Below the pieces are notes generated by a model. The model was given only the letters and a program-made list of their open reading frames with translations. It was not told the origin of the DNA and did not search any database. Positions 18,164 to 21,112 of a stretch of 33,117 nt of DNA are shown here, in pieces. Both the position numbers and the translations under genes were made by a program. How positions within the stretch are numbered: the first letter of the stretch is position 1; each line of letters opens with the position of its first letter. Source of the stretch: an uncultured Clostridia bacterium (GTDB lineage Bacteria > Bacillota > Clostridia > Oscillospirales > CAG-272); NCBI GenBank assembly GCA_947643245.1, contig CANRVI010000006.1, positions 1-33,117 of the forward strand. The letters are read 5' to 3'.

Positions 18164-18994
18164 ATGAAACTTGGTATCATCAACGATTGGAGTGAAGCGG
18201 GTTTCCAATACGTACAGAGCAAGGGCCTGGAGGCCATAGAATTTTGCGTGAACTACTACAGCGACAGTAAGGCATTTTTGGAAAAGGCGCCGGAGGTCAA
18301 AGGGCTCAGCGAAAAATATGGGATCCCGGTTGGATCCACGGGCCGTTGGGGAGCTACCCGTTTGGATGAGGAAGGACATATCATCGAAAAGGCGCTGCAA
18401 GAGGATTTGGATATTATTGAGGCTGCATCCATTATGGGCTGTCCTGTGTTCAACTGCGGCTGCAACCGGGTGGAGGCGCTGACCTATTACGACAACTGTC
18501 AGCGGGCTATCGAATATTTTGGAAAGCTGCTGGACTATGCGCGGCCAAGAGGTGTGAAAATCGCCGTATATAACTGCGGCTGGAACAATTTTGTTTACGA
18601 CGATAAGGCATGGGAAATCGTGTTGGGTGCCCTGCCGGAACTGGGTATCAAATACGATGTATCGCACTGCTTTGCTCACGGGGGCGACCGTAACTACCTC
18701 CGGGAACTGCGGGATTGGGGGCACAAGATTGTCCATTTTCATATCAAAGGGTCTCTGTACATAGATGGCGAACGGTATGATGATCCACCGGCAGGGCTGG
18801 ATCAAACCAACTGGGGTGCGGTGATGGATATGCTGTATACCAAGGGATACGACGGGATGCTGTCTATCGAGCCGCATTCGGAATACTGGAAGGAAGAAAA
18901 GGGCAGTTGGGCTGTTGATTTTACCATTCAGTATATCCGTCCCTATATTATGCCCGATGGTTATACATCTCCGGAAACTCCTTATTTTCCGTAA
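18164..18994 (+). CDS. sugar phosphate isomerase/epimerase family (AP-endonuclease 2-like TIM barrel)
   Basis: Xylose isomerase-like TIM barrel signatures: YDVSHCFAHGGD, IVHFHIKGS, GYDGMLSIEPH. SD TAGGAGGC. Confidence 0.8.
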   Translation: MKLGIINDWSEAGFQYVQSKGLEAIEFCVNYYSDSKAFLEKAPEVKGLSEKYGIPVGSTGRWGATRLDEEGHIIEKALQEDLDIIEAASIMGCPVFNCGCNRVEALTYYDNCQRAIEYFGKLLDYARPRGVKIAVYNCGWNNFVYDDKAWEIVLGALPELGIKYDVSHCFAHGGDRNYLRELRDWGHKIVHFHIKGSLYIDGERYDDPPAGLDQTNWGAVMDMLYTKGYDGMLSIEPHSEYWKEEKGSWAVDFTIQYIRPYIMPDGYTSPETPYFP

Positions 18995-19014
18995 GTGTTA
19001 AGTGGAAAATTTTT

Positions 19015-19054
19015 CTCCCAAGCATCCGATTTGTGATGCTTGGGAGGTTTTTTT
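19015..19054 (+). terminator. rho-independent terminator
   Basis: CTCCCAAGCATC - 8 nt loop - GATGCTTGGGAG then GGTTTTTTT. Confidence 0.92.
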
Positions 19055-19135
19055 ATACTCACCTTTAATGAGGGATTATTTATGTTGGCACTTCTTTTGC
19101 CCAAAAGGGAAATTTAAGTATATTGCCTGATTTTC

Positions 19136-19164
19136 TTGCAAAAGAGAGAAAAATGTGGTATCCT
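19136..19164 (+). promoter_or_regulatory. sigma70-type promoter for a candidate non-coding transcript
   Basis: TTGCAA - 17 nt - TATCCT, downstream of the preceding terminator. Confidence 0.5.
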
Positions 19165-19170
19165 AATAGA

Positions 19171-19376
19171 AAGTAAATATATGAGATATTACGTGGCAGC
19201 AGAAAGATTTCTGGCTGCTCAATTTGGGGAATTACGGCTAAAATAGAAAAGCGTTTGGCAGCATGGCGAGCTGTTCGCCATACCTTATGAATTTGTAAAA
19301 AGGGATCGCAGAGAATGGTATAGTATGGCTTTCGCTTTTCCATTTTGAATAAACAGCCGGAGACGTCTCCGGCTGT
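19171..19376 (+). ncRNA. candidate structured non-coding RNA or leader (no family recognised)
   Basis: Hairpin 19173-19192; hairpin 19196-19218 (GCAGCAGAA/TTCT-g-GCTGC); long stem AAAAT-a-GAAAAGCG (19240-19253) / CGCTTTTC-c-ATTTT (19333-19346) enclosing ATGGCGA/TCGCCAT (19263-19281); 24-nt perfect palindrome 19353-19376. No convincing ORF. Confidence 0.4.
19353..19376. terminator. 24-nt perfect palindrome, possible terminator or attenuator
   Basis: ACAGCCGGAGAC|GTCTCCGGCTGT; only a weak T-run follows on the plus strand (CATAGGTTTGT). Confidence 0.45.
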
Positions 19377-19393
19377 CATAGGTTTGTATTATT

Positions 19394-20032
19394 ATGGAAC
19401 AGAAGAAAGGCGGAGGGGCATTGCCAATCTTTGAATACGAAAGCAAGAAAAATGTAGAAAATATGAATGGAACTCCGGTCGTTATTCAAATCGAAAGCCT
19501 GCAGCGGGAACTGGAAGGCGCAAATCTTTTTGGATCTCCTACCGCGCCTGCACAGGGGAACGAGAATGGATATCTGCAGGAGGATGAAGCATTTTTGGAT
19601 ACACAGATGCCTGAAGATTTTTGCAATGAAGAAGGGACAGGTATGTATACTTTGGTCAGCCGAGGAGAGCTTTCCCGACAGGGAGAATTGCTGCAGCTGG
19701 CCTATCAGGAAGAACTGGATGGAGAAGAAGGGGTGGATGCCTCCGTTCCTACACAGGTATGCCTTACTTTTTCGGAAGCGGTGTGCAGTCCTGTCACCGT
19801 AAGCCGAAGCGGTGACATGCGCACGGTTTTTACTGTGGAACAGGGCGTGCGGCAGTATAGCACATATCATACCCCCTATGGACAGGTAGATATGTGTATA
19901 ATCGGAAAAAAAGTTGAAAATCGGATCGGCTCTGCCGGCGGTGTTCTGGTGTTGGACTATGCGGTAGAACTGCGCGGGATGATTACCCAGCGGACGAAGA
20001 TGACGATTCGGGTAAAACCGGAACAAAGATAA
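19394..20032 (+). CDS. DUF1934 domain-containing protein (YwiB-like)
   Basis: C-terminal TVSRSGDMRTVFTVEQGVRQYSTYHTPYGQVDMCIIGKKVE...GGVLVLDYAVELRG fits the family. Start is uncertain (ATG 19394, TTG 19421 after GGAGG, or ATG 19463). Confidence 0.7.
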   Translation: MEQKKGGGALPIFEYESKKNVENMNGTPVVIQIESLQRELEGANLFGSPTAPAQGNENGYLQEDEAFLDTQMPEDFCNEEGTGMYTLVSRGELSRQGELLQLAYQEELDGEEGVDASVPTQVCLTFSEAVCSPVTVSRSGDMRTVFTVEQGVRQYSTYHTPYGQVDMCIIGKKVENRIGSAGGVLVLDYAVELRGMITQRTKMTIRVKPEQR

Positions 20033-20056
20033 GAAAAAGAGAAGGGGGCGGCGTGC

Positions 20057-21112
20057 GTGACGGAAGCAGCATTTCGGCGGGAAATGAAAAATGGACTGGC
20101 CGGTGTGTATCTTCTATATGGGGAGGAGGATTATCTCAAACGGTTTTATGTTGGCCGTGCCCAGGCGTTGACGCTGTCGGAAGATGAGACACAGGCTGCC
20201 TTTGACAGCTATAAAATGGGGACGGACGCTCCAGATTTAGATGCACTGGAGGAAGCTGTCCTGGCTCTGCCGCTTATGGGTGAGCGAGTGTTTATCCAGT
20301 ATCGGGGCGGAATTGGTTCTCTTGGAACTGCCGGGCAAAAGCAGCTTGTGGAAATACTTGGGAAGGTAGATCCTGCCAGCACCGTATGTCTGGTGGCACC
20401 CCCTGCCGGTGGCTTTGATCCGGGTAAACCCGGACGAGGAAAGCCGTCTGCCCTGTACAAGAAACTGGAACCGGTGTGTACTATGGTGGATCTGTCTGCT
20501 TACCCTCCCGGAGAACTGAAAAAATGGATGAGCCGCCGTCTGTCACGTGCAGGCGTTTTTTTGCGGGAGGATGCGGCAGACGCTATGCTATGCCGGTGCG
20601 GTCGGGATATGTATATTCTGTCCGGAGAATTGGACAAGCTTGCGGCTTATGCTGGTGCGGCCGGACTGTCGGAAATCGGCCCCGATCAAGTTGAGTTTGT
20701 TACCTGTACCGCCGGAGAAGAGGACGCTTTTGCCTTGGCAAATGCCGTGCTGGCCGGGGACAGGGGCCGTGCTCTATCTGCACTTTCATATTATAAAAAA
20801 AATCAAATTAATGCTGTTGCAGCCCTTGCTTCTGTGTCAAAAGCGATTTGTGATATGCTTGCAGTCAGCCGGCTTGCCGGTGCAGGGTATGATCAGGCGG
20901 GAATTGCTTCTGCTTTGAAAATGCATACTTACCGCGCAGGTCTGTATCTGTCCGCAGTACGGGGAATGGAACCCAGCCGGCTTGCAGCCGCAGCCGGCCG
21001 ATGCCGGGAGGCGGACGTGCTGCTGAAAAGCACAAAACTGGATTATATCGCCCTGGAGCGAGTAATTTGTACCATTCCTTCTAAAAAGACAGGAGAAGTA
21101 AGGCATGGATAA
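20057..21112 (+). CDS. holA: DNA polymerase III subunit delta
   Basis: GTG start after GAAGGGGG; GVYLLYGEEDYLKR, ELDKLAAYAG, AFALANAVLAGDRGRALSAL typical of HolA. Confidence 0.9.
   Translation: MTEAAFRREMKNGLAGVYLLYGEEDYLKRFYVGRAQALTLSEDETQAAFDSYKMGTDAPDLDALEEAVLALPLMGERVFIQYRGGIGSLGTAGQKQLVEILGKVDPASTVCLVAPPAGGFDPGKPGRGKPSALYKKLEPVCTMVDLSAYPPGELKKWMSRRLSRAGVFLREDAADAMLCRCGRDMYILSGELDKLAAYAGAAGLSEIGPDQVEFVTCTAGEEDAFALANAVLAGDRGRALSALSYYKKNQINAVAALASVSKAICDMLAVSRLAGAGYDQAGIASALKMHTYRAGLYLSAVRGMEPSRLAAAAGRCREADVLLKSTKLDYIALERVICTIPSKKTGEVRHG

Follow-up and report, generated by a model that had tools for sequence, protein, structure and literature searches.

A probable structured 5′ leader with a covarying palindromic hairpin upstream of DUF1934-holA in an uncultured Clostridia bacterium

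Introduction

Leaders of the translational riboswitch or RNA-thermometer type form mutually exclusive helices, one of which masks the Shine-Dalgarno sequence. Another documented function of 5′ structure is mRNA stabilisation by stem-loops, and the B. subtilis aprE leader and E. coli papA are among the examples given in a review (PMC3997798).

The locus described here precedes the DUF1934 and holA genes in a 33,117-nt window (the whole stretch of DNA analysed) of the genome under study, G000. As in translational switches, mutually exclusive helices are predicted and one of them would cover the Shine-Dalgarno, but Rfam is negative, there is no ligand and only two copies exist. In the relatives G003 and G008 a GC-rich stem-loop likewise lies near the putative mRNA 5′ end before a strong ribosome binding site (RBS), as in the known stabilisers, whereas in G000 the covarying hairpin lies ~ 180 nt from the putative transcription start. 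Intrinsic terminators also place a GC-rich palindromic stem between genes; the palindrome studied here, however, has no U-tract and is found 3′ of DUF1934's own promoter and 5′ of its RBS. A literature search returned nothing relevant on DUF1934, nor on ywiB/holA leaders.

Results

The layout of the locus is given in Table 1. A terminator scan of 18950-19480 gave a single terminator-like site, at 19014-19054. The preliminary description had this terminator isolating the region from proBA; it is present, but the gene preceding it is the TIM-barrel gene and not proA itself.

Table 1. Features of the leader region and its neighbours, in window coordinates
Feature	Coordinates	Strand	Basis or remark
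Xylose-isomerase-like TIM-barrel gene	18164-18994		Upstream of terminator; itself 3′ of proB and proA
Intrinsic terminator	19014..19054	+	13-pair stem, then TTTTTTTATA; 3′ of TIM-barrel gene, insulates from upstream transcription
Leader promoter TTGCAA-17-TATCCT, extended -10 (TGG)	19136..19164	+	Direct reading, conservation in relatives
21-codon frame within leader	19181..19246	+	Considered as leader peptide, rejected
Hairpin 1, soon after putative transcription start (~ 19171)	19195..19219	+	Fold; same-place hairpin in G016 and G005
Large stem-loop domain, arms 19240-19253 and 19333-19346	19240..19346	+	Fold; only in G000 and G016
Inner alternative helices of large stem-loop	19263-19281 and 19277-19329	+	Fold prediction
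24-nt palindromic hairpin before DUF1934	19353..19376	+	Genus-wide conservation, covariation
Shine-Dalgarno region CAGAAGAAAGGCGGAGG	19400..19416	+	Predicted pairing with 19330-19347 (3′ arm of large stem)
DUF1934 gene, TTG start	19421..20032	+	PF09148, E=9e-18
holA (DNA polymerase III delta subunit), gene after DUF1934	20057..21112	+	PF21694, E=2.9e-15

The promoter was read directly as TTGCAA at 19136-19141, a 17-nt spacer and TATCCT at 19159-19164 with TGG before the -10; a scan with a stricter -10 criterion did not list it. The promoter-like element noted previously is present by this reading, and it is conserved as TTGCAN-17-TAT(C/T)CT upstream of DUF1934 in five relatives (G016, G005, G003, G008 and G002), so that it is common to six of the 17 genus genomes, G000 included. 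Across 19129-19166 none of the 38 bases differs between G000 and G016. Since DUF1934 homologues begin with MP(I/L)xEYE and G016 carries a 1-nt insertion between ATG 19394 and TTG 19421, the sequences indicate that the true start of the gene is TTG 19421, with AAGGCGGAGG as its Shine-Dalgarno, and not ATG 19394. Therefore, everything from the putative transcription start at ~ 19171 to 19420 would be leader, and the structured region extends to 19420.

On the plus strand, the predicted fold of 19165-19385 has an energy of -63.7 kcal/mol (z -2.4) and 2 of 200 dinucleotide shuffles fold equally well, so it appears moderately better than the shuffles; the minus strand of the leader region gives z -5.4. 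The successive stems and the 24-nt palindrome of the preliminary description are all found in the region, including its 13-bp, one-mismatch stem around a 7-bp inner hairpin, which is here a 14-bp stem with one A.C mismatch (19245/19341). This mismatch is a G-C pair in G016, where the stem is perfect. The inner hairpin is ATGGCGA/TCGCCAT at 19263-19281, and the predicted MFE structure contains the alternative pairing of GCCATAC (from 19277) with GTATGGC (to 19329). The alternative folding proposed earlier is reasonable; a more telling alternative is the pairing of the large stem's 3′ arm with the Shine-Dalgarno.

The genus sample comprised 17 genomes, 14 of them with DUF1934, and was complemented by 41 family controls. 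A GC-rich hairpin lies upstream of the DUF1934 start in all 14 (z -1.7 to -5.4), and the controls show no comparable structure (mean z -0.34). In a 12-sequence alignment, double changes affect 7 of the 10 palindrome pairs and 6 of the 8 in the outer helix. Standard pairs make up 95% of pair cells, a percentage biased towards structure as the sequences were cut around the hairpin before aligning. Double changes occupy 17 cells, and neither value was attained in any of 500 shuffles. The pre-cutting accounts less readily for the double changes, and the signal collapses when the partner is slid by 1-3 columns. A matched change is also seen between G000 and G016, from G19356-C19373 to A-U. Furthermore, genomes carry no more than two occurrences of the exact hairpin motif, hence the hairpin is not a dispersed repeat; the exception is G005, with three further occurrences besides two in its leader (L013). 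These latter are near-identical hairpins, CAGCCGGAG..CTCCGGCTG and CAGCCGGGG..CTCCGGCTG, located ~ 180 nt apart and also able to pair with one another.

The surroundings of the hairpin vary within the genus. G016 (contig CAOKAC010000008.1 of an uncultured Clostridia bacterium, assigned at 95% identity) has the entire leader with 93% identity to G000. G005, a third species, has the promoter followed by a diverged leader of similar length. In G003, G008 and G002 the promoter is followed by the hairpin within ~ 15-40 nt of the -10 and then by the RBS. In the other eight DUF1934 genomes a hairpin separates DUF1934 from the gene upstream and no promoter is evident in between; in members of this kind it was read directly 3′ of a ThuA-like gene.

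The stretch of ~ 150 nt that separates promoter from palindrome is found only in G000 and G016, with a diverged equivalent in G005. Indeed, a model search of the 17 genus genomes and 196 family genomes recovered the large stem domain in G000 and G016 only, where the stem shows a single mismatch-to-pair change. As this central domain is restricted to two genomes, only the palindrome could pass the covariation test suggested earlier, and its pairs do covary; the central domain has no covariation support. From ~ 19231 to 20056 the two genomes diverge by ~ 2% (2.0% at DUF1934 third codon positions), compared to 13-26% third-position difference in the neighbouring genes measured. This pattern suggests that 19231-20056 is likely a short, recent recombination tract, in which DUF1934 and part of the leader were exchanged. 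With divergence abnormally low across the whole exchanged tract, identity between G000 and G016 is uninformative on constraint, and an argument for constraint based on it was withdrawn.

Hairpin 1 lies just outside the low-divergence block. There, 14 of 64 bases differ between G000 and G016, and a hairpin occupies this position in G000, G016 and G005 despite largely different sequence. An equally stable fold arises in 2.6% of random substitution placements and in 11.6% when clustering is kept. Strict compensation was rejected, the two predicted folds being read in different registers. Rewritten between close relatives yet still a hairpin, this element resembles the outcome of quasi-palindrome correction. 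An origin of the extension by tandem duplication of a hairpin-RBS block was also rejected, as anchored alignments were not significant (p 0.14, 0.05 and 0.42).

A search of Rfam 15 returned no match at gathering score and chance-level matches only under permissive settings, in agreement with the earlier remark that no Rfam family was recognised. The label of orphan thus stands as regards Rfam, with the qualification that only two genomes carry the central domain. The absence of a convincing ORF was likewise borne out, no frame on either strand having relatives beyond the two genomes: the plus-strand frame matches only G016 and G000 and otherwise gives chance-level matches, Pfam has no match for the 99-aa minus-strand ORF or the leader peptides, and no phage match was found for the former. 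The leader peptide was rejected, since in G016 its ATG is ATA and its TAG stop is TGG, and it has no protein relatives; with the ATG lost in G016, the conserved short ORF of a leader-peptide attenuator is not found. A mobile element or MITE was rejected too: the region has one copy in its own genome and no match in plasmids or phages, and a model search of the genus and family genomes yielded no further copy.

In folds extended over the start region, the large stem's 3′ arm is predicted to leave its partner and pair with the Shine-Dalgarno. The predicted mean unpaired value of the Shine-Dalgarno in full-leader folds is 0.086 in G000 (7.3% of shuffles at or below this value) and 0.010 in G016 (0 of 150 shuffles), two values that are not independent as the shared tract was recently exchanged. 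The corresponding values are 0.26-0.58 in G003, G008, G002 and G005, which lack the large stem domain, and no masking of the Shine-Dalgarno is predicted for the middle region of G005. The predicted cost of an open Shine-Dalgarno is 2.3-9.9 kcal/mol and varies with the length of sequence folded, and the open state wins when the G016 sequence ends directly after the start codon. The duplex between 3′ arm and Shine-Dalgarno (-17.6; best in the leader -18.9, p 0.12) is not above chance on its own.

Discussion

We consider it fairly probable that the locus is a ~ 250-nt 5′ leader (~ 19171-19420) of DUF1934-holA, with a selected hairpin and an extension that possibly gates translation. Of the two roles offered in the preliminary description, the cis-regulatory leader agrees with the same promoter and hairpin lying directly before DUF1934 in relatives and with the covarying pairs, which are confined to the palindrome. 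A sigma-A-type promoter would initiate the DUF1934-holA transcript, and the GC-rich hairpin selected throughout the genus, placed without a U-tract just 5′ of the RBS, would stabilise or insulate the downstream message. By analogy with known 5′ stem-loops, this role for the palindromic hairpin is likely. In the lineage of G000 the leader would have gained an extra ~ 150 nt, with hairpin 1 and the large stem, whose 3′ arm has two predicted partners: pairing with the matching 5′ arm would leave the RBS free, and pairing with the Shine-Dalgarno would hide it. With less confidence, the predicted folds suggest that the extension may lower or gate translation. If the leader controls DUF1934-holA, the expression of a clamp-loader subunit and of an uncharacterised protein family would be linked to an RNA element in uncultured Clostridia; if it does not, it would be an ordinary structured 5′ UTR. 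The testable part is the genus-wide covarying hairpin.

A new translational switch, riboswitch-like or protein-binding, would go beyond the gating proposed above, with a ligand selecting between arm:arm and arm:Shine-Dalgarno pairing. In its favour are two rival folds that differ by a few kcal/mol, the predicted masking in both full-leader folds and the resemblance of the 5′ arm GAAAAGCG to the Shine-Dalgarno flank GAAAGGCG; the negative Rfam search, the existence of only two near-identical copies, the lack of independent covariation, the divergence in G005 and the association with a single locus with no clue to a ligand make it distinctly improbable. That an undescribed, lineage-specific switch serves DUF1934 and holA, one arm taking either its partner arm or the Shine-Dalgarno, seems slightly less probable still. 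The other role offered earlier, a standalone ~ 200-nt sRNA running from the promoter at 19136 to the palindrome as its terminator, would fit the dedicated promoter, the upstream terminator and the several stems. However, the palindrome is followed by CATAGGTTTGTATTATT and not by a U-tract, and the terminator scan did not report it, which disfavours this role; G003, G008 and G002 keep promoter and palindrome with almost no RNA left between them for an sRNA; and the RNA body is unconserved beyond G000 and G016. We therefore hold an sRNA to be very unlikely. A small protein gene, encoded by a plus-strand 55-codon or a minus-strand 99-codon frame, is scarcely credible: both frames are free of indels in G000 and G016, but the plus-frame start and stop codons are not common to both genomes, searches gave no convincing relatives, and the differences cluster in hairpin 1.

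The palindrome might instead be a relic, left from the terminator of a ThuA-like gene upstream, with the rest of the region drifting as functionless intergenic DNA. In G001 and G012 hairpins of a similar kind close ThuA-like genes, several genus members have one between such a gene and DUF1934, and the extension is lineage-specific. In six genomes, however, the hairpin lies 3′ of the conserved promoter, so it would not usefully terminate the upstream gene, and it nonetheless covaries and stays stable there; moreover, the U-tracts are weak. A relic is accordingly unlikely in our estimation, and a selected hairpin in the DUF1934-holA leader remains the preferred reading. The hairpin that ends the ThuA-like gene in G001 and G012 (L084 and L093) is CAGCCGGG..CCCGGCTG with a better U-rich tail, and because of this likeness the DUF1934 hairpin may have descended from such a terminator.

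A further arrangement was observed in G011, G015 and G007 (L018, L019 and L020). In these genomes a Shine-Dalgarno-like AAAGGA or AAGGAAGG precedes the GC-rich hairpin, whereas the interval from hairpin to ATG has none; the hairpin would seem to draw the Shine-Dalgarno near the start codon.
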